Shown here piece after piece: positions 1-29,554 of a stretch of 29,554 bases of DNA. The position numbers and the translations under genes are program-made. Origin of the DNA: a virus; IMG/VR virus record IMGVR_UViG_3300032294_001220, positions 1 through 29,554 of that record, one strand, 5' to 3'. Numbering within the stretch: the stretch's first letter is position 1; each line of letters starts with the position of its first letter. The notes beneath the pieces are model-generated. The model made no database searches. It saw only the letters and a list, made by a program, of their open reading frames with translations, and was not told the origin of the DNA.

Positions 1-18
1 GTGTCGGGCCACGCGACA
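1..18. other. cos: Genome terminus, cos-like site (end of phage map)
   Basis: The first 11 bases (GTGTCGGGCCA) are identical to the last 11 bases of the window. They sit in a dyad, TGTCG-7 nt-CGACA, at 2-18. Lambda-like phages cut by a GpA-type terminase have 5' single-stranded ends of about this length. Filled-in ends would show exactly such a short duplication. The assignment as cos is inferred from the repeat, the dyad and the nearby terminase genes. Confidence 0.6.
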
Positions 19-13995: not shown

Positions 13996-14184
13996 TTAGT
14001 CGTTGGGAAGGAGTTCGACGCGGACGAGAGGGCCGAGGTCGGCGGGGGTGACAGGCTCGGAGAAACCGAACTTGGCCTCGTTGCCGTTAATCTCGGAGAA
14101 GCAATGTTCACGCCCAGCGAAAAGCGAAGGGAACAGGTTGTTCCAGTCGGCCTGAAACATCGTCGTTACTTTGTAGGTAATCAT
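13996..14184 (-). CDS. Small hypothetical protein after the tail fibre
   Basis: A 62-aa protein of unknown function. ATG 14184 overlaps the tail fibre stop by ATGA. It is a compact, aromatic-rich sequence (MFQADWNNLFPSLFAG, CFSEINGNEAKFGFSEP). Small genes directly after a fibre gene are often fibre assembly chaperones, but nothing in this one shows it. Confidence 0.75.
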   Translation of the reverse strand: MITYKVTTMFQADWNNLFPSLFAGREHCFSEINGNEAKFGFSEPVTPADLGPLVRVELLPND

Positions 14185-17084
14185 TCTGAGAAGAAGATGC
14201 GGGGAGGAAGCTGACTGACACCCATGCGGACAGCCGCGCTGCCCGTTTGCTCAATTTGCTCGGTATAGAAGTTAAACATTTCACCTTGGAAGCCGGTGAA
14301 GTTGGCAGAGATCGTGCCGACGAGGGTGTCGTTGACATACATCTGACAGGTATCTGTTCCGTTGTAGGTGACCATCCAGTCAAACCACTGATTTGCAGTA
14401 GGCGTGAAGGACGTGGTCGTCTGGCTGTAGGTGCCGCCGTTGATCGAACTGCGAGAACGCATGTAGAAGACGATGGCAGACGCGCCGCCACCGGCGACTC
14501 GCCATCCAAGGCTTGGCCCAGTAGGGTCGCCAGATTGACCAAGCACATTACGACCACCTAGCTCACAGCGGAAAGTATTGTTTACGTCACCCGTGAAAGT
14601 ACCCGAGTCCAGCCCGATAATCGTTCGACCAGAGGCCCAGAAAGGACGAGCATAGTTTTTACCAAACTCATTCACGCCACGCTTAGAGCCAAGGAACCCA
14701 AGCTGAGAAGCAAAGGTATCAAACACAAACGCAGAGTATCCGGCGGTAGAAGCGTTAGGGCCGACGAATTGACGCCAACGAGCGGAATTAGAAGGAGCGG
14801 CAGCACCAGCACCGCTTGTGCCTACGGTTCCGCCTCCGAGGAACTCCTGCATCCCAGGGAACATCATCATCTGGCGCACCTTGTCCGGCGACATGGCGAC
14901 CGTGTTAGAGGACGGGCTGTTAGTCTGAGCTACGGAAGCGATGGCCGGAACCGCAGCCTGCACGAAGGCAGTCGTTGCGATCTGGGTCGTGTTCGTGCCA
15001 CCCGTGGCCGTCGGAGCGGTCGGCGTTCCCGTAAGCGCCGGAGAAGCCAGAGGCGCGCGGGTCGTATCCGTCGGGTGAACGTGGTCAGCCCTGGCGTAGC
15101 GCAAGGACGTACCGACGGCAGCCGTGCCATTAGCGAGCGGGGTGGCGGCGGCTGCTTGTGCAACGACGAAGGCAGTAGTAGCGAGCTGAGTCGTATTGGT
15201 ATCGACAGCGGCGGTCGGGGCGGCGGGCGTGCCCGTAAATGTCGGGCTGGCGAGAGCGGCGCGAGAGGTATCAGTCGGGTGGACGTGATCCTGACGAGCG
15301 TAGCGGAGGGACGTGCCGACGGCGGCGGTGCCGTCAACCAGAGGAGTCGCCGAGCCTGCCTGACCGACGACGAAGGCCGTGGTCGCGAGGGCGACGCTGT
15401 TCGTATCAGCTGCGGCGGTGACGCCGTTGGTCGTGCCCTGGAGCGTGGTCGTCGAGCCGGTCGTGTTTCCGATGGTTACGGTCGTCGTGCTACCAGCGGC
15501 GCCTAGGGTTCCGATGGCTACGGCCTTGGTAAGGCCAGAGGCGGTGACACCCGTGCCGAAGTTAAAGTTCGACGCGGCCGTTCCCGTGCCGATTGAAATC
15601 TGATTGCCAGAGGCCGCGATGGAAGCGTTGAAGGTCGTCGGGCCGTTGATCGTGATGTTGTTCGTGCCAGCCGTGGAACCGATGTTGACGTTGGTCGTCG
15701 AGCCAGAGACGCCGCCCGTGCCGACGTTGACCGTCTTGGTCGAGCCGGAGAGGGTCGCGCCAGAGGCCAGCGAAGTCGTGCTGGTCGCAGTCGAGTTTCC
15801 GAAAACAAGCGTGGCGTTAGAGAAGGTCTTGTTGCCGTTGATGGTCTGCGTGCCGTCGACGTCGACGTACTGGCGGGTCGAACCGTTGATGCGGGCGAAG
15901 AGGCCGCTCGTCGTACTCCAGACGTCTCCATTCACCGGCGTGGTCGGGGCCGTGCCGTGCGGGAGGTTGAAGCCCGCGCCGATGGTCGCGTCAGCGGCGA
16001 CCGTGTTGACCTTGCCGTTCTGGTCGATGGCGACGAAGTTCGTATCCGAAGCCTGGTCGTGCAGGGTCAGGATGTTGCCCGTGCCGGATTGCTCGATGAA
16101 CAGCGCCGCGCCGGTGGAGTTGCTGTTGATCGTGACGCTGCCCGTCAGGGCAGGGGACGCGAGGGGAGCAAAGCCATCGATGGACGCACCCGAGGGGATG
16201 GTCACGACGCCCGAAAAGGTCGGGGAAGCGATGGGGGCGTAGGTCGAGGCCGCCGTCGATGAGTCGAGCTTGGCGTTCAGCGCCGTGGAGAGGTCGGTCT
16301 GATTGCCGAGCACGCCGGTGATGTCGCCCCAGACGATGGAGGCCAGCGGAACCGTGCCGCCCACGTTGACCGTCCAGGTGGAGAAAGTCCCCGAGCCGGT
16401 ATGGCTGCGGACATCGACTTCCATGACGCCGGTTCCCGAGTTGTAGGACAGCACGACGGCGTGCATATGGTTCGCCGCGTCGTGAGCGATGACCACGTCC
16501 TGCTGCGTGGTGTAGGACAGGCCCGTGCCGACCGTCAGCGTCTTGTTCGCGTTGTTGATGGTAAGGCTCGTCGTCGAGCTCGTCAGGTAGCGGTCGCCAG
16601 GGATGAGGGTCGTGAAGGCGACATCGTAGTCGGCTCCGCTCTGCTTGGTCAGGACTTGGCCGGTGGTGCCAGCGGCAGGCAGGCCGCGAGCGGTGACCGC
16701 GTATGTCGAGGCGGCAGCCGAAGTCGTCAGATAGGACGACATCCCGGAGATGGGCTGATAGGTCGAGGCCGCCGTCGAGCTGAGGAGATAGGGCGAGAGG
16801 GACGAGGACGTGATGTAGCCCGAGGGGTTTGTCAGCGGGTAGTAGGTCGACGCGGCGGCGCTGGTCGTCAGGTAGGCCGACAGGTTGAGCGTGACCCAGT
16901 CAGTGGCGTAATCCACGCCCGTCGTCGTCTTCTGGAGGTACTGACCCGATGTGCCGCCAGCAGGGACGCCAGGGCCAGCGGGGCCGGTCGCTCCAGGGAC
17001 GCCGACGCCGATGGTAAGGACAGCAGGGGCCGTCGACCCGGTGGTGACGTCGACCGCTCCAGGGATGGTGATCGTGAGCGACAT
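14181..17084 (-). CDS. Tail fibre / receptor-binding protein
   Basis: A 967-aa fibre, the largest protein here. Residues 1-30 are a beta-rich attachment part, 26-45 a short collagen-like Gly-X-Y stretch (GATGPAGPG). Repeats of the form SSTAASTYxPI and SPTFSG follow, then a long region of small beta turns. At about 560-710 are two tandem copies of a 68-residue unit containing LRYARxDHVHPTDT and LATTAFVV, a pattern common in fibres. The last 180 residues resemble a lectin/laminin-G jelly roll (FDWMVTYNGTDTCQMYVND) and probably bind host sugar. Trimeric assembly is expected. Start ATG 17084 four bases after the preceding stop. Confidence 0.85.
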   Translation of the reverse strand: MSLTITIPGAVDVTTGSTAPAVLTIGVGVPGATGPAGPGVPAGGTSGQYLQKTTTGVDYATDWVTLNLSAYLTTSAAASTYYPLTNPSGYITSSSLSPYLLSSTAASTYQPISGMSSYLTTSAAASTYAVTARGLPAAGTTGQVLTKQSGADYDVAFTTLIPGDRYLTSSTTSLTINNANKTLTVGTGLSYTTQQDVVIAHDAANHMHAVVLSYNSGTGVMEVDVRSHTGSGTFSTWTVNVGGTVPLASIVWGDITGVLGNQTDLSTALNAKLDSSTAASTYAPIASPTFSGVVTIPSGASIDGFAPLASPALTGSVTINSNSTGAALFIEQSGTGNILTLHDQASDTNFVAIDQNGKVNTVAADATIGAGFNLPHGTAPTTPVNGDVWSTTSGLFARINGSTRQYVDVDGTQTINGNKTFSNATLVFGNSTATSTTSLASGATLSGSTKTVNVGTGGVSGSTTNVNIGSTAGTNNITINGPTTFNASIAASGNQISIGTGTAASNFNFGTGVTASGLTKAVAIGTLGAAGSTTTVTIGNTTGSTTTLQGTTNGVTAAADTNSVALATTAFVVGQAGSATPLVDGTAAVGTSLRYARQDHVHPTDTSRAALASPTFTGTPAAPTAAVDTNTTQLATTAFVVAQAAAATPLANGTAAVGTSLRYARADHVHPTDTTRAPLASPALTGTPTAPTATGGTNTTQIATTAFVQAAVPAIASVAQTNSPSSNTVAMSPDKVRQMMMFPGMQEFLGGGTVGTSGAGAAAPSNSARWRQFVGPNASTAGYSAFVFDTFASQLGFLGSKRGVNEFGKNYARPFWASGRTIIGLDSGTFTGDVNNTFRCELGGRNVLGQSGDPTGPSLGWRVAGGGASAIVFYMRSRSSINGGTYSQTTTSFTPTANQWFDWMVTYNGTDTCQMYVNDTLVGTISANFTGFQGEMFNFYTEQIEQTGSAAVRMGVSQLPPRIFFSE
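14960..15415 (-). repeat. Tandem repeats within the fibre gene
   Basis: Two full units of about 204 bases (68 codons), starting about 15355 and 15151 on the minus strand, plus a partial unit upstream. Shared blocks encode GTAAVGTSLRYAR, DHVHPTDT and TTAFV. DNA copies have diverged, mostly at third positions, so the duplication is old or the repeats evolved under selection. Confidence 0.75.
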
Positions 17085-17441: not shown

Positions 17442-17951
17442 TCAGACCTCCGTCAGCTTGGTGATGCTGACGATATACTCGTAGCCAGGGCTGTAAGTCT
17501 GCCCTCCGTTGAAGGCATTGCTGTTCATATTGAAGAAGGTCGTGGTCGTCGTAACGAGTTCGCCAATCAGTTGGTCTTTCTGGTCATCGGTAAGGGTCTG
17601 GCCTACCAAAAAGCCTCCCGCCGTCCACTCGACGAAACTGCCAGGATTGCCGGGGAATGGGCTATTAGCTGTGAAGTAAGGGCTGCGGACGGACTGAGGT
17701 GTCCCGACCGAACCCGTGATGGTAGACGGATTAAAGTCGGTCCGCATCATGCTCTGCTGATCGCCGAGGAAGATAGGCCCTTCGTAGACGATGTTATAGG
17801 TGTCCGCGATGATGGGAGGGTCACCGGGGACGGGCGCCGGGGTGCTGATGCGGCCGCCCCTAGCCAGCGGGATGCCGACGCCAGAGCCCGTGCCCGTGAT
17901 GCAGAGGACAGGCGCACGAACCTTGGCCCATGTCTTGAGGGCCGTAGCCAT
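17442..17951 (-). CDS. Putative tail structural protein, unrecognised
   Basis: A 169-aa protein likely in the tail tip or baseplate by position. It starts with a helix (MATALKTWAKVRAPV), then glycine-rich and beta segments (PIIADTYNIVYEGPIFLGD). ATG 17951 shares bases with the preceding stop (TAATG). No family recognised. A 38-base gap with a motif shared by other gene leaders follows before the next gene. Confidence 0.8.
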   Translation of the reverse strand: MATALKTWAKVRAPVLCITGTGSGVGIPLARGGRISTPAPVPGDPPIIADTYNIVYEGPIFLGDQQSMMRTDFNPSTITGSVGTPQSVRSPYFTANSPFPGNPGSFVEWTAGGFLVGQTLTDDQKDQLIGELVTTTTTFFNMNSNAFNGGQTYSPGYEYIVSITKLTEV

Positions 17952-18499
17952 TAGGTGCGGGCGTAGTAGTACTTCGCCGTCAGGGTGCCGAGTTTGATAC
18001 GGTCAGCCCAGAGGGAGCCGGTGACATACTGCACGACCGTGCAGACCGGGCCAGCGCCTTCCGTAGCCTCGGCCAGCAGGATGTAGCCATAGGTGTCCGT
18101 GTCGGTGAGTTGCGTGCCAGAGGAGATGATGCGCGGCCACTCGTCTTCGTCGTCGGTCTGCCCAGGGAAGGCGTCGTTCGTCTGGTCGACACCCGCCCGG
18201 AGGTAGATGTACGACTTCGAGGAAGTGAAGTTCAGGACGCTGACAGGCCAGTCAGGGATGCCGCCCGCGGTACGGTTCGTGAACACCCAGACGGAGTCTT
18301 CCTCGATCTGGGCGACCTCGTTGTTCATCGTGCCTGGGACGACCTGATAGAGCCAAGTGCTGGCATCGAGCACCACGTTGATGACCTTGAACGGATGCAG
18401 GACCGGCGCCTGCACGCTCGGGAACGGGTCAGTCGTATCCAGCGTGAACCCGCTGGAGGACGAGTCGAAGGTATAGCCGACTCCGGGTTGCAGTTTCAT
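17951..18499 (-). CDS. Putative tail structural protein, unrecognised
   Basis: A 182-aa, beta-rich protein with many serine, threonine and aromatic residues and no long helices (YTFDSSSSGFTLDT, SKSYIYLRAGVDQTND, YGYILLAEATEGAG). ATG 18499 shares its A with the preceding TGA. It probably forms part of the tail tip or baseplate with its two neighbours. No family recognised. Confidence 0.8.
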   Translation of the reverse strand: MKLQPGVGYTFDSSSSGFTLDTTDPFPSVQAPVLHPFKVINVVLDASTWLYQVVPGTMNNEVAQIEEDSVWVFTNRTAGGIPDWPVSVLNFTSSKSYIYLRAGVDQTNDAFPGQTDDEDEWPRIISSGTQLTDTDTYGYILLAEATEGAGPVCTVVQYVTGSLWADRIKLGTLTAKYYYART

Positions 18500-19320
18500 C
18501 AGGCGGCAGTGTAGACCGAGGCGACGTAGCCTTCGCGGTTAAAGCGCAGTTCGTACTGGACCTTGTAGAGCAGGCCGAAGTCCTCGAAGGATACCTGAGC
18601 CAGGAGCAGCTGGTTCTTGCCGCCGACGGTGAACGCCGTGCCCATGTAGTCGGGGACTAGGTTGCGGGATGCAAACGTGCCGGTGCCAGAGGTCTTGCCC
18701 ACGGCGTTTCGCATATTGTTCACGAAGGTGCTGCTCGAGGTATAGATCACGCCGGAGAGGGAGCACTGCGGGGCGAGGTAACTCGTCTTGCCGTAGAAGT
18801 CCTTGAACTCAGGCTTCTTGAAGCCGAGGAACTTGCGGCCGATTTCGAGCTCGAACGTGGCGCCGTTGTTCCCCTGGTACTCGACGGGGTTAGACCCGGC
18901 GACCGCGGTATACTTCGGCGTAGCCAGAGAGCCACCCGAGCCGACGCCAGCGATGGGCGAGCCCGTGAAAGGGCTGGATGTCTCGAAGAAGTTAGGGTGG
19001 GTCGTGATGTGCTCCGAGGTCAGGCCCTGCGAGCCGGTGATCTGCGGGTCGGTGTAGGCCAAGCCGCCATCGATGCCGACATAGTCCACGGTCATCGTGG
19101 CGACATTCAGCGCGTCATAGACGATGCTGTAACGATGGGCGGCGCAGTTCGCGTTGATCGGGCAAGTAGAGCCGCGATTGACCACTGAGCCAAGGGAGGC
19201 GGCAGCGTCTGCCTTCCAGACCACCGTGGCCGTCAGTAGGCCGTAGCCATCGTCGGAGATTTTAGCCCCTGGCTGCTGGACCGGGGTCGTGAGAGGGAGA
19301 CCGTTCTTTACGATAGCCAT
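18499..19320 (-). CDS. Putative tail structural protein, unrecognised
   Basis: A 273-aa protein immediately after the tape-measure candidate (stop TAA, then ACC-ATG). It has several glycine/serine-rich loops, two cysteines close together (CPINANC), another pair later, and beta segments near the end (LLLAQVSFEDFGLLYKVQYELRF). In lambda the genes here code for tail-tip proteins, so a distal tail or hub role is likely. No family recognised; it is not long enough to be a J-type host-specificity protein. Confidence 0.8.
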   Translation of the reverse strand: MAIVKNGLPLTTPVQQPGAKISDDGYGLLTATVVWKADAAASLGSVVNRGSTCPINANCAAHRYSIVYDALNVATMTVDYVGIDGGLAYTDPQITGSQGLTSEHITTHPNFFETSSPFTGSPIAGVGSGGSLATPKYTAVAGSNPVEYQGNNGATFELEIGRKFLGFKKPEFKDFYGKTSYLAPQCSLSGVIYTSSSTFVNNMRNAVGKTSGTGTFASRNLVPDYMGTAFTVGGKNQLLLAQVSFEDFGLLYKVQYELRFNREGYVASVYTAA

Positions 19321-19323
19321 GGT

Positions 19324-20070
19324 TTATTTTTGAGGGGTCTTGGTAAAGTCGGTGGACATGAAAGGATTACGGTCCACGAGGTTCTGGAGCAGGGCGGTCT
19401 GCTTCTGCTGTTCCTCCAGCTGCGCGTTCATCGCCTCCATGACCGGGTTAGGTCCGACGCCGATGACGTTGCCGAAGCCTTCGGGGCCTTTGAAGTCGGC
19501 GGCCTTTGTTTTCTGGGCATCGCCAGGGACGACCAACTTGTCTTGATTTGCTTTAAACCAAGCCTCGATTTCGTCTCGGACCTTTTTGGTCTGAGCCATC
19601 TCGGAGATGGTGAACATCGTCGGTTCTCCTTCTGGGCCTGAGAACTGCGGCAGATACTTCTCGTAGATGCCTTGCCCTTCGCGGGTGTTAAGGAAGTCCT
19701 CGTAAATCTTCTGAGCGCCTAGGCGGACCTTCTGCTCTTCTTCCTGCTGGGCGATGCGATACTGAACGAAGGAAGCCTGTCGTTTCTGCTGAGAAGTGGC
19801 GAACTGCGTGTCGCCCTTAGCGATCAGGTCAAAACCGTCTTTGGCGTCCTGCTTGGCTTTCTCGATGTCGGCCTTAATCATGCCTAGCACGTTCTGCACA
19901 ATAATCATCGGAGCCAAAAAACCTAGGGCGATGTCCTTAAAGGCCGTGCTAAACTTCTTGCTGATGTCCTGGACCTGTTTGTCGAAACCCTCCGTAGCCT
20001 TCTTGGCCTTCTCCATGGCCTGCGGGACGTCGGAGGTGGTCTTGATGTTGACTGTCAGGTCTTGGGCCAT
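19324..20070 (-). CDS. Short tape-measure protein candidate
   Basis: A 248-aa, mostly helical protein. It begins like tape-measure proteins (a beta start, then QAMEKAKKATEGFDKQVQDI), has a hydrophobic segment at about residues 48-66 (IALGFLAPMIIVQNVLGMI) and long charged helices after it. It follows the tube and chaperone-position genes, as in siphophages. At the usual about 0.15 nm per residue it would set a tube of only about 37 nm, much shorter than lambda's 150 nm. ATG 20070 lies just after the preceding stop. Alternative: a tail-tip or injection protein in a phage with a very short tail. Confidence 0.75.
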   Translation of the reverse strand: MAQDLTVNIKTTSDVPQAMEKAKKATEGFDKQVQDISKKFSTAFKDIALGFLAPMIIVQNVLGMIKADIEKAKQDAKDGFDLIAKGDTQFATSQQKRQASFVQYRIAQQEEEQKVRLGAQKIYEDFLNTREGQGIYEKYLPQFSGPEGEPTMFTISEMAQTKKVRDEIEAWFKANQDKLVVPGDAQKTKAADFKGPEGFGNVIGVGPNPVMEAMNAQLEEQQKQTALLQNLVDRNPFMSTDFTKTPQK

Positions 20071-20071
20071 G

Positions 20072-20659
20072 TCAGGGGGTGCTTTCCTTTGCCGGATTGG
20101 AAGCAGCCGCCGCAGCCTCCCGGGCTTCCTCCTCGGCCATGAAGGCTTCCTCCTCGGGCGACATGATCGCCACGTCCGCCCCCTTGCGGATAGCCAGGGC
20201 GGAGTTAAGCCAGATGGCCTGACACTCCGGCATCTCCCAAGCGCGCTGCTCAGGGATGCCTGACGCGATCAGGTTAGCTACGATGGACAGCGGCCAAGGC
20301 ACCCCCTTGTCGCCGCCCCCTGACTTGGTCTTGGTCTGCTCCCAGAACTTGGGCCAGTCTTGGACGAGGATGTAGCCAGCGAAGGCTTCCAGCAGGCGCT
20401 CGAACTTAACGGGGTTCCGCTGAAGGCTCAGGATGCGCAGCTTGTCCATCCAGCCGATGGCGCCGCCCAGGGGTTCCTCGGCGCACACTTGGCAGGCGAA
20501 GATAAGGTCGGCGGGCGTGATGCCGCGGGTAGACGATACCAGCGGCGAGTCGAAGGCCATCAGGCGCACGCGGTACTTGAGGCACCAAGGGTAAAGAGTT
20601 CGACCCAGTATCCTGAAAGGAGCCGGGTCGACGTAGGCGTTGAGGAAGCGACGGTCCAC
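20072..20659 (-). CDS. Protein in tail-assembly-chaperone position
   Basis: A 195-aa, mostly helical protein of unknown family. It lies between the tube candidate and the tape-measure candidate, where lambda has the G/GT chaperones. It contains a CQVC pair (about residues 57-60) and an acidic, alanine-rich end (PEEEAFMAEEEAREAAAAA). I see no slippery site with an overlapping second frame, so no frameshifted form is evident. The start is GTG 20659, preceded by GAGG six bases upstream (one of the few likely ribosome binding sites) and by a small hairpin in the leader. Confidence 0.78.
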   Translation of the reverse strand: MDRRFLNAYVDPAPFRILGRTLYPWCLKYRVRLMAFDSPLVSSTRGITPADLIFACQVCAEEPLGGAIGWMDKLRILSLQRNPVKFERLLEAFAGYILVQDWPKFWEQTKTKSGGGDKGVPWPLSIVANLIASGIPEQRAWEMPECQAIWLNSALAIRKGADVAIMSPEEEAFMAEEEAREAAAAASNPAKESTP

Positions 20660-20694: not shown

Positions 20695-21075
20695 TTACGC
20701 GTAGGTGATACCTTCAAAGTCGATGGCCGTGACGGTGACAGCCGTGAAGCCCTTGTTCGAGCCCTTGTCGTCAATCTTGGTAATGACGCCGGAGAAGGAA
20801 GCAGAAGCGGTGCCAGCCGGGTAGGCCGAGGCCGTGTTGACCGTGAAGGCGAGGGTGGAGCCGAGCGTCGGGATGGACGAGGTCTTAACAATGCCTTCGA
20901 TGGTGATCTCCGTCTTGCGGTCGTCGAGGCGGTGCGTCTTGGTCAGGCCCGTCTCATCGACAACCATGGCCTCGGCGTTGAACGAGGCCGAGAGGCTGTA
21001 GCTCTGGACGAAGAGGTTTGCGACAGTACCCGCGATACCGTAGACGCAGGTTGTTCCGTTTGAGATGGCGGCCAT
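20695..21075 (-). CDS. Major tail (tube) protein candidate
   Basis: A 126-aa beta-rich protein. Position after the U-like gene, length and strand pattern (VANLFVQSYSLSASF, KTEITIEGIV, LAFTVN, SASFSGVITKIDDK, FTAVTVTAIDFEG) fit a small tail tube or major tail protein. The leader AATTACAA-ATG has no Shine-Dalgarno. A related possibility is a tail-tube-associated minor protein; no other tube candidate is evident. Confidence 0.75.
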   Translation of the reverse strand: MAAISNGTTCVYGIAGTVANLFVQSYSLSASFNAEAMVVDETGLTKTHRLDDRKTEITIEGIVKTSSIPTLGSTLAFTVNTASAYPAGTASASFSGVITKIDDKGSNKGFTAVTVTAIDFEGITYA

Positions 21076-21096: not shown

Positions 21097-21531
21097 TTAG
21101 GCGGGCGGCAGGACCACGAGCACGTCAAAGCCGAACGAAGTCGCCCAGGAGCGCTCGTCGATGCCCTCGTCTTCGGAGACCACGGTGACGTCGTAACAGG
21201 CCGCGTCGGTCGAGGTCACGAAGGCCGCTTTGATGGACGTCAGGTCGCGCATATTGCCGGACAAGGCGGCGCAGCGGGCACGGTGATCGGCGAGGGTCGT
21301 GTCGTCGGCGTTTGAGAAGAGGGTGATGCGGACCGAGCAGCTGAAGTTCCCGGCGCCGTCAGGAAGGTCGGCAGGGTTGCGGGCGGACTCGCAGAGGACC
21401 ACGGCCTTGGGCAGGGTCTGCGTTGCGGCGTTGTCGCCCGTCAGGAAGGCCACGGTGGTCAGCCCGGTCTGGGTGGAGAGGTAGGTGGCCAAGGTGGCCT
21501 CTACGATGTGGCGGATGGATTTGGTTCCCAT
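21097..21531 (-). CDS. Tail terminator / completion protein (gpU-like by position)
   Basis: A 144-aa protein. It has an N-terminal helix (IRHIVEATLATYLSTQTG) followed by strand segments (AVVLCESARNP, FSCSVRITLFSNADD) and a helix (LADHRARCAALSGNM), the common pattern of tail terminator proteins that cap the tube and join head to tail. It lies between the Z-like gene and the tube candidate, as U does in lambda. The gene starts after TAACCACTT-ATG. Confidence 0.72.
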   Translation of the reverse strand: MGTKSIRHIVEATLATYLSTQTGLTTVAFLTGDNAATQTLPKAVVLCESARNPADLPDGAGNFSCSVRITLFSNADDTTLADHRARCAALSGNMRDLTSIKAAFVTSTDAACYDVTVVSEDEGIDERSWATSFGFDVLVVLPPA

Positions 21532-21537
21532 AAGTGG

Positions 21538-22491
21538 TTAGCGGCGGTTGGCGCGCTGGATGGTGCCGTTCATGTGGCGCTCGAAGCGGGCCTTCATCTG
21601 CTTGACTCGGTTGGCGTAGACGAGGCCGAGCACGTCTGCATCGGTGGCGATGCCGTTCACGTTGCCCTGGGTATTGGTCACGCTCAGCTCGACGACCTTT
21701 TCGTTGGCCGTGAGTTTGTTGGTACCCAGCACGCGGTTGTGCCGGTTAATCCAGGCTACGCTGAGAAGTTTGACGCCGAAGTCCTTGGGCACGCCGTTGA
21801 TGACGGGCTTGGGCAGGGAGCGCAGGGCCGATGCCCAGCCAGCCTTGATCATGCCAACCATGGCTTGGCGGTCGCGGATGTATTGGTCGAGGTCGGACTT
21901 GGACTCGACGAGCATCTTGAGTTTGACCGGGCGGACGGCCTTACCGATGCGTCCGCCGAACTTGCCCTTGATGCGGTTGTGCGGCGGGCGCAGCTCCTGG
22001 ACAAACCCTTGGCCGAACTCGGTCATCACTGGGTTTGTCGTGTTAAAGTAGTTCTTAGCCTTCTTGAAAGCCCGGTCATAGTCGCGGTCGTTCGCGATCT
22101 TGCGCATGATGGGCGGTAGGCTCTTCAGCGCCTGGAGCGAGCCCTTGCCGATGACCTTGTTAAACAGGCCAATGTCGTTGGTCTTGGTGGCGTAGGCCAG
22201 CTGATTGGTCAGGAGGGCGGCGGCGGAGTTCGAGCTGCGGTCGTTAGCCGCGACAAACATCTTCTTGATGTCGCCGGCTACGGCGTTGTCGCCCGCCACT
22301 TGGGCCGCCTTGGACAAGCCACGGCCACCACCCTTCGGCAGCGGAGGGGTGAAGGTCGCCGCGTCTTGGCAGGCGAGGGCGGCTTGTTCAAGCGCCGCGT
22401 CCCGCATGGTCTGCCCGGTGTTGGCCGCGAACTGACGCAGGGCGGCGATGAACTCAGCCTGAGACTTCGGACTGATGCTGACCGTCACCAC
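21538..22491 (-). CDS. Minor tail / head-tail completion protein (Z-like by position)
   Basis: A 317-aa basic protein. The start (about residues 1-55, including EFIAALRQFAANTG and ALACQDAATFTPPLPKGG) resembles gpZ/HK97-gp10-like proteins, which finish the head-tail joint; the typical length is 110-200, so this one is long. The extra C-terminal half carries helices and an arginine-rich end. GTG start at 22491 (another GTG at 22488), seven bases after the preceding stop. The gene order FII-Z-U fits lambda. Confidence 0.72.
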   Translation of the reverse strand: MVTVSISPKSQAEFIAALRQFAANTGQTMRDAALEQAALACQDAATFTPPLPKGGGRGLSKAAQVAGDNAVAGDIKKMFVAANDRSSNSAAALLTNQLAYATKTNDIGLFNKVIGKGSLQALKSLPPIMRKIANDRDYDRAFKKAKNYFNTTNPVMTEFGQGFVQELRPPHNRIKGKFGGRIGKAVRPVKLKMLVESKSDLDQYIRDRQAMVGMIKAGWASALRSLPKPVINGVPKDFGVKLLSVAWINRHNRVLGTNKLTANEKVVELSVTNTQGNVNGIATDADVLGLVYANRVKQMKARFERHMNGTIQRANRR

Positions 22492-22497
22492 GGCGGG

Positions 22498-22875
22498 TTA
22501 CTGGTTATCGTCGATGACGACGAGCGTGATCCATGCCGACCCGGGCTTGTAGGTCTGGCTCGTGATGCGGACGGTCTTTCCGCCCGCCACAATCTTCTTC
22601 CCCTGGGCAAGGCTGGCGATGGGGACGCCGCTCGACAGTAGGGCCGCCGATGCCCCAATAGACCCGTCTGGCTGGCTCCAGGAGGCCGTTACAGCGGGGA
22701 GCCTGACCGAGTACTGGGTCCGCTCCATATAACCCCCTGCTTCGAGCACGGTCGAGACGGCGGGGTCGGAGATGAGGCAGGAGAAGGTGATGGCCCCGGA
22801 GTTGGCCGACCCGGCCACGCCGAAGTCCGCGATCATCTCCTTAGCGTCCGCCAGAAACTCAGAGTAGAGGCTCAT
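22498..22875 (-). CDS. Head-tail joining protein (FII-like by position)
   Basis: A 125-aa protein. It begins with a helix (SLYSEFLADAKEMIADFG), then beta strands (GAITFSCLISDP, YSVRLPAV) and ends with KTVRITSQTYKPGSAWITLVVI. Size and pattern fit small head-tail attachment proteins like lambda FII (about 117 aa). I chose ATG 22875; a GTG at 22905 directly abuts the terminator and would add ten residues. It is the first gene after the terminator. Confidence 0.72.
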   Translation of the reverse strand: MSLYSEFLADAKEMIADFGVAGSANSGAITFSCLISDPAVSTVLEAGGYMERTQYSVRLPAVTASWSQPDGSIGASAALLSSGVPIASLAQGKKIVAGGKTVRITSQTYKPGSAWITLVVIDDNQ

Positions 22876-22905
22876 CCTATACTTGCCCGGATTGGTAGGG
22901 GGCAC

Positions 22906-22955: not shown

Positions 22956-23825
22956 TTAGGCCGTGGTGAGGCGGTTGAGCGAGGAGGCGCGACCGACAGC
23001 GGCACCGAACAGGATCGTCGCGGTGACGTTGTAGTAGCCGGACTGCTCCTGGCCCATGAGGACCTGGACGCCGAGGCCGGTGTCGGCGTCGACAGCGTTG
23101 GCGACTTCGAAGCCCGGGATTTCGGACATCGGGAGGGCAGAGGCGACGGCGATGGCGTCAGCGCCGCAACCGAAGCCAGCGAGGGACTGCGAGTTGGTCG
23201 GGAGGCTGTTCCACTGGTAGACCGAGGCACCGGCGAGGGTACCGATCTGGCCGGAGGTCAGGATGCCAGCACCGAGGACGGAGTTACCGATGATGGTCGC
23301 GTCAGCCAGGAGGCCGTTGGCGTAGGTCGGGTTCAGGATGAACGCGCGGGGCTCGGCGGCCTTGGCGGCGTCGAGGACACCCTTCGAGGCGACGACTTCG
23401 GCGTAGGTCAGGCCAGCGCCGGTGTTCGTGCCAGAGCTGAAGTTGCTCGAGGTGATGAGGGCGCCGATTTCGGCGAGGCAGGCTTCGGCGAGGGCGTTAG
23501 CGGCGGTCGGGACGAAGGCGTTCGAGAGGAACTGGGCGCCGTACATCTTGACGTCGAGGGGCGAGAAGCGGCTCGACACCTTGAAGTGCTTGAGGGTGAC
23601 GTTGGCGGCGGTGATCGTCGCGTCGTCCTGGGTGAGGTAACCGCCAGAGCCGAACTCAGTGGCAGTGGAGGTGCCGATGAGGGGGACCTGGACGGTCTTG
23701 CCAGCGCCGGACTCAGCGGCGGTGAAGACGCTGGAGAAGGCACGGAGGGCGGGGAGCTTGCCCTTGAGGGAAGCGATGACGGACTCGGCCAGGATGGCCG
23801 GGGCGTTTGCGATGGAGTTAGCCAT
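22956..23825 (-). CDS. Major capsid protein
   Basis: A 289-aa protein forming the head shell. It follows protease and scaffold genes and lies before head-tail genes, as expected. Features fit HK97-fold coats: an N-terminal helical arm (AESVIASLKGKLPALRAFSS), an E-loop-like strand region (KTVQVPLIGTSTATEFG), a long helix (NALAEACLAEIGALI) and A-domain strands (RAFILNPTYANGLL, YYNVTATILFGA). The leader contains TAATTTCCCTC and ends CACACC-ATG. A strong terminator follows. The exact family was not determined. Confidence 0.85.
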   Translation of the reverse strand: MANSIANAPAILAESVIASLKGKLPALRAFSSVFTAAESGAGKTVQVPLIGTSTATEFGSGGYLTQDDATITAANVTLKHFKVSSRFSPLDVKMYGAQFLSNAFVPTAANALAEACLAEIGALITSSNFSSGTNTGAGLTYAEVVASKGVLDAAKAAEPRAFILNPTYANGLLADATIIGNSVLGAGILTSGQIGTLAGASVYQWNSLPTNSQSLAGFGCGADAIAVASALPMSEIPGFEVANAVDADTGLGVQVLMGQEQSGYYNVTATILFGAAVGRASSLNRLTTA

Positions 23826-25113: not shown

Positions 25114-26658
25114 TTAGGAGTTGGGTTCGTCTTCGGACTCAGGCTCTTCGAGGTCGGCGGGTTCGTCTTCGCCTTCGTCCTCCATCTCGCCGGCAGGAGA
25201 CTCGGGGCCTTCCTCGACGTCTCCGCTGATCGTGCCGACCGGGGTGTTGGACGGACGGAACAGCAGTTCAAACGGGATGCCGTACTCTTCGGCCAAGTCC
25301 TTGATGTGCACCATGTCGGCAGCCCGCTTGGCCATCTCGGTGCGGAAGTCTAGGCCGCGCTGGGCGTAGAGTTCGGACATGGACAGCAGGCCCATCTCGA
25401 CGTCGGCCCGATCGTTGGCGGCTTCGCGGCCAGCGTCGACGGTGACGGACTTCGGGGTCGTCCAGGAGACGCGGTTCCAATCCGGGTCGTCTGGCAGTTC
25501 GCCGGCGGCGATGCCTTGGCCGATGATGTAACCCCATGTCGGAACGCAGAAGTTCTCAATCATGATGGTCTGGTACTTCGAGAAGACGCGGCCAGCCTTG
25601 GCCGTGATGAGGCGGACGGTGGCGCCGCCGAGCTTGGAGGAGTCGCCGACGAACTCGTAAGGCAGGACGCCTTGGGAGATGTCGCGTTCCAGCGCCGCGA
25701 GGAAGCCGGTGAAGGTGGCGTTGGGGCGGTTGCTCTGGAAGGACGTCATGTCCTCGCCGGGCTCAAGGGCGATGAGTTTGCCGCCCATCGTGTTGGCTAG
25801 GTTGGCGTAAGAGCCGGTCGTGGTCGCGCCGAGTTCATTGGCCATGTCGCCGTCGATGACGCCGCCCTGCTTCTTGATTACGCGGGTCACGTCGCCGTTG
25901 TCCTTCACGGCCTGCTTTTCGAGGGCGAGGATTTCCATCTCGTCCTGGATGCTGTTGATGCTGTGCTGGAGCAGCGGGACGCCACGGGCGCCGGAGGCGT
26001 ACTCCTGGTCGACCACCATCATCATCGACTGGGCGAGAATCTGGCGGGACGAGCCGTCGGAACGGTAGATGTTCACGGCGATGTATTCGCCATACGGACC
26101 GAACTGGATGCCGTCGTGCATACCTTCGGGCACCTTGCCTTCGAGAGGGTCGCCGACGCGGTGGGCTTCCATCAGCTGGAGTTTCGCTTCCCCGGCGCCG
26201 TTACGCACCTTGGCGGCGAAGGAATCACCGTCGCGGATCATGCCGCGGAGAAGGATGGACTGAGCCTGGTAGAACGAGAAGCGGTTCGTGATGTCGATGC
26301 GCTTGGCCTTCTCGGCGAAGTAAGCCTCGTACCGTTCCTGCATCTCAGGGGTCGACGCGTGGCTCTGCGGCTTGATGCCGTCGCCCACGGTGTAGAGGCA
26401 GATGTCCGCAAGGATTTGCTTGAACAGCCCGGAGTTACGCTCGGCCCAGCGGCACTTGCGTACCATCGTCAAGCGGTCGTAAGGCGTCAGGTCACGGCGA
26501 AGGTCACGCGGTTCGGCGCCGTAGGCCGCACGGCGGGCACGCGTCACGCCGATGCTCTGCCAATCGCCGTAGGAAGCCTGCGGCTGCGGGGCGGAGGGCG
26601 TAGCCTTGGGCGTCTTGGGACGCAGGCTGACGGTCTTAATCTTCTTGCGGATGGCCAT
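25114..26658 (-). CDS. Portal protein (lambda B-like)
   Basis: A 514-aa portal. The core (about residues 40-450) has the pattern of the lambda portal family: RDLTPYDRLTMVRKCRWAER, GDGIKPQS, RDGDSFAAKV, GVPLLQHSINSIQDEMEI, and QGVLPYEFVGDSSKLGGATVR. The portal forms the dodecameric ring through which DNA enters and leaves. The last 35 residues are highly acidic and may be removed by the protease. ATG 26658 follows TAACTTTCC. Lambda B is 533 aa. Confidence 0.9.
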   Translation of the reverse strand: MAIRKKIKTVSLRPKTPKATPSAPQPQASYGDWQSIGVTRARRAAYGAEPRDLRRDLTPYDRLTMVRKCRWAERNSGLFKQILADICLYTVGDGIKPQSHASTPEMQERYEAYFAEKAKRIDITNRFSFYQAQSILLRGMIRDGDSFAAKVRNGAGEAKLQLMEAHRVGDPLEGKVPEGMHDGIQFGPYGEYIAVNIYRSDGSSRQILAQSMMMVVDQEYASGARGVPLLQHSINSIQDEMEILALEKQAVKDNGDVTRVIKKQGGVIDGDMANELGATTTGSYANLANTMGGKLIALEPGEDMTSFQSNRPNATFTGFLAALERDISQGVLPYEFVGDSSKLGGATVRLITAKAGRVFSKYQTIMIENFCVPTWGYIIGQGIAAGELPDDPDWNRVSWTTPKSVTVDAGREAANDRADVEMGLLSMSELYAQRGLDFRTEMAKRAADMVHIKDLAEEYGIPFELLFRPSNTPVGTISGDVEEGPESPAGEMEDEGEDEPADLEEPESEDEPNS

Positions 26659-26919: not shown

Positions 26920-27036
26920 TTAAACTTGCCGAGAATGGAAGGCGGAGAGGGGGTACGCCGCCCAGCCCACGCCATAGGTCTCTTCCTCCCACGACACTAA
27001 ACGGCGTACCCTTGAGGAAAGTCTGCCAAGGGTCAT
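26920..27036 (-). CDS. 38-aa microprotein after the large terminase
   Basis: ATG 27036 overlaps the terminase stop by ATGA and its TAA directly precedes the gpW-like ATG, so it bridges the two genes without a gap. The sequence is basic and arginine-rich at the start (MTLGRLSSRVRRLVSWEEE) and aromatic later (YGVGWAAYP). Possibly a translational coupling ORF or a small packaging factor; no family. Confidence 0.6.
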   Translation of the reverse strand: MTLGRLSSRVRRLVSWEEETYGVGWAAYPLSAFHSRQV

Positions 27037-28820
27037 GACGGTTGCAAGTCGGTTTCGGCGGTTTCCCGACCGGCGATGCCCCAGCGGACGGCGGCCAGCA
27101 GGGCGAGGATTTCGCAGTCCATGGCGTGGTTGTCCTTCTTGCCCTGGGGAAGTATCCACATCGGTTTCCCCGTCCGCTTGTCCTTTACGCGGACTTCGGC
27201 GCTGAGCTGCTCAACGTACTCGGGGGTCGCATCCAGCGCATAGGTCCAGACGCGGCGGGCCCGCAGGCCGTGCAGGAGGTCTTTGCCGGCGGTGGCCGAG
27301 TGGACAATCAGGATGGCCCGCTGAGGGATGCCAGGGACGACGATGGACTGCTTCTCGGAGTAGAAGCGGCGGGTCGTATTGCCGGACTTGTCGGTCACGG
27401 CGAAGTCATCGGAGCCCGAGCCCTTGGCCGTCTTCCAATTCCGCTTGGCCGTCTCGCGGTAGACCTCGGTCGTATTGTCACCCGAGTCGACGAGCACCAT
27501 GGCGTGATGGACGCCGTGCTGCTTGGCGAAGGCTTCCACGTTGCCCCATGAATCGATGCGGGCGAAGGCCATTAGGCGGCTATGCCCGGTCTTGGCCCAT
27601 CGGCGCACGGTCACCCAGAAGTGGCCACGCTGGACGTCCACTCCCATCGTGCGGAACGGGATGCTCCCGGGCACGGCGTCCTTCTGCTCGACGACGCGGG
27701 CCTTCGGTGTGATCGCGGCCTCGGCGTCCCAAGGGTCAGCCATCTTGTAGTTGGCGGCCTCTGCCAAGGCCACCATCTCGCCACCCTCTTCGCTCCAGGG
27801 CATAGCCAATCGCTTTTGCTTGAAGATGCGCCGCGGTTCCTCGTCGCCGTATTGGTCGACGGACTCCTTGGCCTTTAGCATCAGCACGCCAAGCTCGCCC
27901 CAGCTCATCGTCGCAAGGCTGTTCCAATGCAGGCCGATGTGCCCGGAGTTTGCGGCGACCGATGTGGCTACGAACGTACCGCGGGCGTTGGCCTCGAGGC
28001 GGCTGGCGTTCGTGTCGGGCAGGAGCGTGCGGCAGGCCGCGCACTCGTAGGTCGTGCCGACGCTGACCTTGTGCAAGTCCCATGTGCCGGTGGCCTTGGC
28101 GTCCTCGGGGAACCTGATCTGCTCCCAGACCCACGGCTGAAGGTGGTCGCACTTCGGGCAGCGCATATTCCAGTCACGCTGGTCCGTCGTCTCGTGTAGC
28201 TGATGGAACTCCTGCCCAGCCCGTCCGCCCTGGGATAGGAAGATGCGTTTGCCCATCCAGCCGAACGCCGTCACGCGCGCGCTCAGTTCGGCCAAGTGTC
28301 CGGGCGGCGCCATCCAGCACTCGTCGGCGATGGTGTAACGCAGGGACAGGCGCTGAAGGTTAGCCTCGTTCCAGATGCCGCGGCAATAGAGCGTCATGCG
28401 GTCGAAGTCCGCAGTCGTCGAGCGGTCGAGGTCGTCGCCCGAGAGACGAGCCTTCACCGGCGGGCAGTTGTTCCAGACCGGGCGGAGGTAACGCAGGGCG
28501 AAGTCCTTGGCCTCGGGGTCGGTGGCCTGTAGCACCATCGTCGGCCCAGGAGCGTTGGCGATGATGTGACAGGTGAGCAGGCGGGCGAAGAGAGATTTGC
28601 CGGATTGGATGCTGGCCAGCACGGTGAGCAGTCGCGTCTCTGGATCGGCGGCGATGCGCAGCGCTTCGGCTACCCATGGCGTACGGTCGGAGCGGAACGG
28701 CCCGGGCATCGGAGAGTCGGGGATGGCGTTGACGTTGGACTCTAGCCACTCCACCACGTCGCCAGAGTCCGACGGACGCAGGACGTCCCGACCGATGCGG
28801 AGCAGGTCAGCCTTAGTCAT
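27033..28820 (-). CDS. Large terminase subunit (GpA type)
   Basis: A 595-aa packaging motor-nuclease of the lambda A family. Walker A is SIQSGKS (70-76, Lys75); Walker B is LRYTIADE (160-167). A zinc-ribbon-like set of cysteines follows (CPKC 221-224, CAAC 260-263). The nuclease domain shows GVD (Asp395), DSGDN (Asp445/448) and KDNHAMDCE (His565/Asp568). It cuts cos and drives DNA into the prohead. ATG 28820 overlaps the 45-aa gene by eight bases. GpA-type terminases are usual for cos phages, in keeping with the repeated window ends. Confidence 0.92.
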   Translation of the reverse strand: MTKADLLRIGRDVLRPSDSGDVVEWLESNVNAIPDSPMPGPFRSDRTPWVAEALRIAADPETRLLTVLASIQSGKSLFARLLTCHIIANAPGPTMVLQATDPEAKDFALRYLRPVWNNCPPVKARLSGDDLDRSTTADFDRMTLYCRGIWNEANLQRLSLRYTIADECWMAPPGHLAELSARVTAFGWMGKRIFLSQGGRAGQEFHQLHETTDQRDWNMRCPKCDHLQPWVWEQIRFPEDAKATGTWDLHKVSVGTTYECAACRTLLPDTNASRLEANARGTFVATSVAANSGHIGLHWNSLATMSWGELGVLMLKAKESVDQYGDEEPRRIFKQKRLAMPWSEEGGEMVALAEAANYKMADPWDAEAAITPKARVVEQKDAVPGSIPFRTMGVDVQRGHFWVTVRRWAKTGHSRLMAFARIDSWGNVEAFAKQHGVHHAMVLVDSGDNTTEVYRETAKRNWKTAKGSGSDDFAVTDKSGNTTRRFYSEKQSIVVPGIPQRAILIVHSATAGKDLLHGLRARRVWTYALDATPEYVEQLSAEVRVKDKRTGKPMWILPQGKKDNHAMDCEILALLAAVRWGIAGRETAETDLQPS

Positions 28821-29525: not shown

Positions 29526-29554
29526 CCACGAAAAACCTTCGTGGTGTCGGGCCA
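29526..29554. other. cos: Genome terminus, cos-like site (start of phage map)
   Basis: The final 11 bases repeat positions 1-11. Directly inside lies a perfect 7-base inverted repeat CCACGAA-5 nt-TTCGTGG (29526-29544), a possible terminase binding element (cosB-like). The small terminase starts 35 bases further in. Inferred from repeat, dyad and context. Confidence 0.6.

Follow-up and report, generated by a model that had tools for sequence, protein, structure and literature searches.

The virus genome analysed here (29,554 nucleotides; IMG/VR record IMGVR_UViG_3300032294_001220, positions 1 to 29,554; hereafter the window) encodes a 248-residue protein that is very probably the tape-measure protein (TMP) of a small Verrucomicrobiota-type siphovirus. 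Comparison with related sequences suggests that this ruler is organized as an exchangeable core of fixed length between fixed ends. A short TMP is in itself not new, one being known from the gene transfer agent RcGTA; the conserved ends, the apparently exchanged core and the fixed length are what is less expected. The TMP gene is usually the longest in a phage genome, and the minimal needs of a ruler are hard to see because TMPs are usually so long. The approximately 190 complete relatives with a short TMP in the same gene slot offer a stripped-down ruler, and a sister clade provides natural longer rulers with recognisably the same ends and related tube proteins. Short and long rulers together make the number of rings per residue and the role of the ends directly testable.

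Identity of the short tape-measure protein

The open reading frame in which the first-pass annotation had recognised a tape-measure-like protein was confirmed on the minus strand, and homologues are present on other contigs. The frame begins with ATG one base past the stop codon of the upstream 195-aa gene. A programmed frameshift from this chaperone-like gene into the TMP is unlikely since a -1 slip misses the TMP frame. The coordinates of the gene, its parts and its neighbours are given in Table 1.

Table 1. Positions in the window of the TMP gene, its parts, neighbouring genes and the end overlap
Feature	Coordinates	Strand	Basis or remark
Short TMP (very probable), 248 aa	19324..20070	-	ORF; ~190 complete relatives; link through L216
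TMP N-terminal block, residues 1-62	19885..20070	-	Conserved start MAQDLTVNIKTTSDVPQAM; hydrophobic stretch 47-65
TMP core, putatively exchangeable, residues 63-190	19501..19884	-	Low pairwise identity, kept length
TMP C-terminal block, residues 191-248	19324..19500	-	FKGPEGFGNVIGVGPNPVMEAMNAQLEEQ..., common to the 367-aa TMP of L216
195-aa protein, tail-assembly-chaperone position (putative function)	20072..20659	-	Always directly upstream of TMP
126-aa protein, tail-tube position (putative function)	20695..21075	-	Place and size of P8625 gp16
144-aa protein, tail-terminator position (putative function)	21097..21531	-	Weak profile similarity to P8625 gp15
317-aa protein, head-tail joining position (putative function)	21538..22491	-	BLAST E 0.001 to P8625 gp14 (weak)
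135-aa probable head-closure protein	22498..22905	-	Weak PHROG match, head closure Hc1, E 0.047
Major capsid protein	22956..23825	-	BLAST 5e-13 to P8625 gp11
Portal, lambda family	25114..26658	-	Pfam Phage_portal_2, E 2e-39
Large terminase, GpA type	27033..28820	-	Pfam GpA_ATPase 4e-31, GpA_nuclease 5e-19
967-aa tail fibre-like protein	14181..17084	-	Phage tail fibre proteins matched over short stretches
273-aa beta-rich protein directly after TMP	18499..19320	-	AF2 pLDDT 89
11-base end overlap	1..11 with 29544-29554	no strand	GTGTCGGGCCA; closed genome

A search of IMG/VR with the TMP as single-protein query returned 67 loci at 39-90% identity, and the loci with the same gene order numbered over 200 after searches with neighbouring genes were added. 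Complete TMPs of the window's group are 243-297 aa long, the sole shorter value being 184 aa in a locus (L066) that is without the C-terminal block. In a second group, marked by a more divergent tube protein, TMPs measure 257-277 aa, with start codons not individually settled. A broken or misassembled gene was rejected as the origin of the short TMP, because approximately 190 relatives fall in the same size range. In every complete relative the slot order is tube-like protein, chaperone-like protein, TMP and 273-aa protein, an order matched by Verrucomicrobia phage P8625 (NC_029047; PMC4642752), in which the TMP (gp19) likewise lies between gp18-like and gp20-like genes. When the tube protein of a divergent locus, L216, served as query, it retrieved a sister clade (L216-L263 and others) whose loci keep this gene order but have a protein of 361-407 aa in the TMP slot. 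In one locus (L047:3400-10813) two blocks of terminator, tube and chaperone genes were present, and a portal-like reading frame there ends in a fused chaperone gene. This contig is clearly a chimeric assembly, and its extra 5 kb before the TMP was rejected as a longer tail block.

Profile scans were conducted with the TMP alone and with a 41-member alignment against Pfam and PHROGs, and with the TMP alone against NCBIfam. The Pfam family TMP_N was below the cut-off (E 0.21), no PHROG or NCBIfam family matched, and matches to YebO and similar coiled-coil proteins were dismissed as chance. The canonical TMP core domain comprises about 165 residues and is found in many, although not all, TMPs. 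Neither this domain nor the PHROG TMP family hit by P8625 and L216 had a match in the window or in the relative contigs G001 and G002. Direct profile comparison of the window TMP with the P8625 TMP revealed no detectable similarity, and sequence searches of the PDB with profiles of the TMP, tube-like, terminator-like and 273-aa proteins returned nothing credible.

The connection to canonical TMPs is supplied by the 367-aa protein in the TMP slot of L216 (L216:3279-4382). This protein has the canonical TMP core domain; its residues 1-240 match PHROG TMP families (best E 5e-19), and it is 27% identical to the P8625 TMP across 235 residues (BLAST E 2e-13), which itself matches the same PHROG (E 4e-17). 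The window TMP matches the L216 TMP by BLAST (E 2e-6), the two start alike (MAQ.L...K..SDV), and the C-terminal block of the window protein is present near the C-terminus of the L216 protein (hhalign probability 96.9%, E 1.4e-10) with the common pattern GNVIGVGxNPVxxAMxxQxE. Since the L216 intermediate joins the ends and slot of the window protein to canonical TMPs, the identity proposed by the first-pass annotation is well supported, the link running through an intermediate family and not through a direct family match. In the window TMP the canonical core domain appears to be replaced by, or reduced to, a core of ~128 residues.

Structure prediction, proposed in the first-pass annotation as a check, yielded a mostly helical AF2 model of low confidence (pLDDT 53), too weak to serve as evidence of fold. 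The composition of the core is of helix type, with 5% Pro+Gly in residues 63-130 and a like trend in all main core types. A hydrophobic segment (mean hydropathy 2.0) spans residues 47-65, and the most hydrophobic 19-residue stretch starts at positions 44-60 in 79 of the 80 TMP members.

The first-pass annotation had further stated that no larger TMP candidate exists in the tail block, which held when all open reading frames of at least 240 aa were reviewed across the complete genome, with the PHROG TMP family finding no match. The others of this size on the minus strand encode the terminase, portal, protease, capsid, fibre, a helicase-like ATPase and other genes that are not tail rulers; the 967-aa protein was rejected as a TMP on account of its matches to tail fibre proteins. 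The window is a complete, closed genome of ~29.54 kb, since its first and last 11 bases are the same and the end-to-end junction, queried as 1.2 kb of the two window ends joined, is unbroken at ~92% in the 32.85-kb relative contig G001 (loci L031, L141 and L142). Because the genome closes on itself, the absence of a larger candidate holds genome-wide, and a longer TMP outside the window was rejected. The IMG/VR record is classed as linear, yet its ends overlap by 11 bases. In G001, ~4 kb is present twice, at both ends, with slightly different portal sequences, more likely the result of a strain chimera than a true terminal repeat.

Predicted tail length

A TMP acts as a ruler at 0.15 nm per residue of straight helix, by which 248 aa correspond to a tail of 37 nm. 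Scaling from P8625, a siphovirus with a tail of 71-75 nm and a TMP of 521 aa (PMC4642752), gives ~34-36 nm. The TP901-1 TMP adds no tail length through its ends: its line reaches zero tail at 127 aa, with a slope of ~0.146 nm per residue (PMC5099701), and applied to 248 aa gives about 18 nm. A short tail follows from the TMP identity and the ruler rule calibrated by P8625, and a tail tube of ~18-37 nm, or 4-9 rings, is predicted for the window. Thus, the short tail claimed by the first-pass annotation is retained, whereas its figure of about 37 nm is better taken as an upper bound. Among the homologues of other lengths whose comparison it had recommended, the sister clade has longer TMPs and P8625 has a measured tail.

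The description of the tail as unusually short is right for a phage, the TMP being among the shortest known, although RcGTA provides a precedent. The RcGTA TMP (g11, Rcc01694) is approximately equal in length at ~216-219 aa (113+83+20 residues described) and accompanies five tube rings and a 49-nm tail (PMC7296036), the shortest among systems reviewed (PMC8718954). It was the only precedent for a short TMP found; the top-ranked papers of a literature search did not contain the phrase "short tape measure protein". RcGTA combines a short tail with a normal ring-stacked tube (PMC7296036), and a tail of this kind is predicted for the window. RcGTA differs in that it is a gene transfer agent rather than an infectious phage; its TMP is described as helix-sheet-helix. 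The window TMP had no sequence match to the RcGTA TMP in the search of solved structures, in which the latter is without a built atomic model.

P8625 resembles the window in its lambda-type terminase and portal, S49/Clp-type protease and genome of about 30-33 kb; it differs in the length of its TMP, in the presence of the canonical core domain and in having a measured tail. The organization of the window TMP can also be likened to that of TP901-1, where the two ends and first hydrophobic region are needed and the middle sets the length (PMC5099701). The TP901-1 TMP is much the longer, at about 937 aa, with repeats and a 118-nm tail (PMC5099701), and the window TMP resembles what would remain of it after removal of nearly all of the dispensable middle.

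A core that appears exchangeable

Mean pairwise identity among the TMPs is 74% for residues 1-62 and 72% for residues 191-222. In residues 63-190 it is 27% overall (18-37% by sub-region), compared with 82% and 85% for the tube-like and chaperone-like neighbours. The length of the core is kept at 129 ± 7 aa despite this divergence. The borders are apparent in DNA: the window and locus L010 are 96-100% identical up to the end of the chaperone-like gene and over the opening codons of the TMP, ~45% identical through the core and again ~90-100% identical from approximately codon 190. Conversely, two loci (L001 and L003) carry a window-like core (85-88%), and their backbone is no more similar to the window than the core is.

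Correlations of identity were computed across 75 distinct members. The identity of the N-terminal block tracks that of the upstream chaperone-like gene (r 0.58) and the identity of the C-terminal block tracks that of the downstream 273-aa gene (r 0.61), whereas core identity shows almost no correlation with that of the tube (r 0.10), chaperone (r 0.14) or 273-aa protein (r 0.15). Physical linkage alone could give the correlations between the ends and their neighbours; the decoupled core requires recombination at its borders, or very fast change. Where both neighbours are more than 90% identical, the cores are less than 35% identical in 17 of 38 pairs, and in 41 pairs the core is more than 80% identical and the 273-aa protein less than 60%. 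Clustering at 40% identity gives four main core types and three singletons, and some cores are 92-99% identical across different backbones. The core types are probably distant homologues and not unrelated proteins, because single-linkage at 30% unites all of them.

In the mechanism proposed, the conserved C-terminal block is probably part of the distal tail complex, together with the 273-aa protein, and the head-proximal end is probably occupied by the conserved N-terminal block with its hydrophobic helix. Between them the helix-rich core would fill the tube, set the number of rings at ~4-9 (18-37 nm) and meet the host envelope during DNA entry. Very different cores of approximately equal length would have been swapped in repeatedly by recombination between the conserved ends; as a presumed reason, a core bound to cross the host envelope and yet keep its length would evolve in the pattern seen. 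We tentatively propose, as possible rather than probable, that the core is traded as a specificity cassette for crossing of the inner membrane or escape from envelope-based defence, that its length is held because it sets tail length, and that the sister clade combines the same ends with a core ~110-150 residues longer. Independent replacement of the core fits evidence that the interior of the TMP decides the inner-membrane route and capture by defence systems. The window group can be likened to lambda and Bas14-18, in which internal TMP segments vary among related phages and determine how the TMP interacts with host membrane or defence (PMC13190303). Those TMPs are longer and differ by point changes, small indels or a single divergent segment, as opposed to whole-core replacement at fixed length in the window group.

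The pattern could also reflect weak constraint, any helix of the right length being sufficient, and not selection by host or defence, an explanation to which we assign a likelihood only slightly short of even. Consistent with it, the length of the core is kept and its sequence is not, and a repeat of the TP901-1 TMP can be replaced by alanines (PMC5099701). However, the small number of core types, near-identical in some cases across backbones, looks like spread and not free drift. In coliphages, moreover, internal TMP regions decide which inner-membrane factors are used and whether SNIPE is escaped; one such region is tied to ManYZ dependence and SNIPE sensitivity, and escapers of SNIPE variants from Bas14 all map within TMP residues 100-150 (PMC13190303). 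That the exchange of cores is mainly an artefact of short-read contigs mis-joined across the conserved ends of different strains is unlikely. All relatives are metagenome contigs, among them the chimeric L047, but mis-joining cannot create the divergence of the core relative to its neighbours, near-identical cores are found with different backbones across contigs of separate samples, and near-identical backbones carry different cores in many contigs.

The identity of the protein itself was weighed against a role in a podovirus-like stub tail, as needle, plug or injection protein, with length set in another way or with no tube. The protein is indeed very short and lacks the canonical core domain, the tube assignment is positional, and the short TMP of RcGTA shares features with the P22 tail needle (PMC7296036). 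Nevertheless, the slot and ends in common with TMPs that have the canonical core, the siphovirus morphology of the related P8625 and the 126-aa tube-like gene in all relatives make such a protein very improbable, and a tape-measure role is preferred.

Neighbouring genes and probable host

The first-pass annotation described the tube, terminator and joining genes as lambda-like. Matches to lambda-type families were obtained for the large terminase (TerL, GpA), portal and S49 protease; the tube, terminator and joining proteins are without a family match. The proposed tube, terminator, chaperone and 317-aa proteins had no match in Pfam, PHROG or NCBIfam, and their names follow from position and synteny with P8625. 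The tube-position protein is conserved in all relatives at 124-127 aa; profile comparison with P8625 gp16 was negative. The 195-aa protein (66-97% identity among relatives) has the place and size of P8625 gp18, with no sequence similarity detectable by profile comparison. The 144-aa protein showed weak profile similarity to gp15 (E 6e-4, probability 29%). Identity of the 317-aa protein (21538-22491) among relatives is bimodal (~36-50% or 70-98%), in contrast to the high identity of both neighbouring genes; this gene also seems to be exchanged on its own.

For the 273-aa protein, a fold search with the predicted model hit many uncharacterised phage proteins, the best at E 1e-19, as well as a viral protein of 334 aa (E 1e-5). 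P8625 gp20 has the same length as the latter and the same place in the gene order, suggesting that the two are one and the same. A fold search in the PDB returned nothing, and profile comparison of the 273-aa protein with P8625 proteins was negative. It is probably a distal-tail protein. The 182-aa slot that follows (17951-18499) holds proteins of 173 to 309 aa in relatives, and the 169-aa protein (17442-17951) is missing or unrecognisable in most of them; the products of these variable slots are possibly adhesion proteins.

By TerL and portal, P8625 and Akkermansia phage Moulinsart are among the nearest isolates, and two relative contigs sit in one Opitutae bin, although the binned contigs were given little weight for the host. 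The host is likely a member of the Verrucomicrobiota. The sources of metagenome-assembled genomes and the spread of samples suggest that the phage group is mainly freshwater. One relative contig (L136) is binned with an actinobacterium (LaPlata_bin-3933), likely a binning error.
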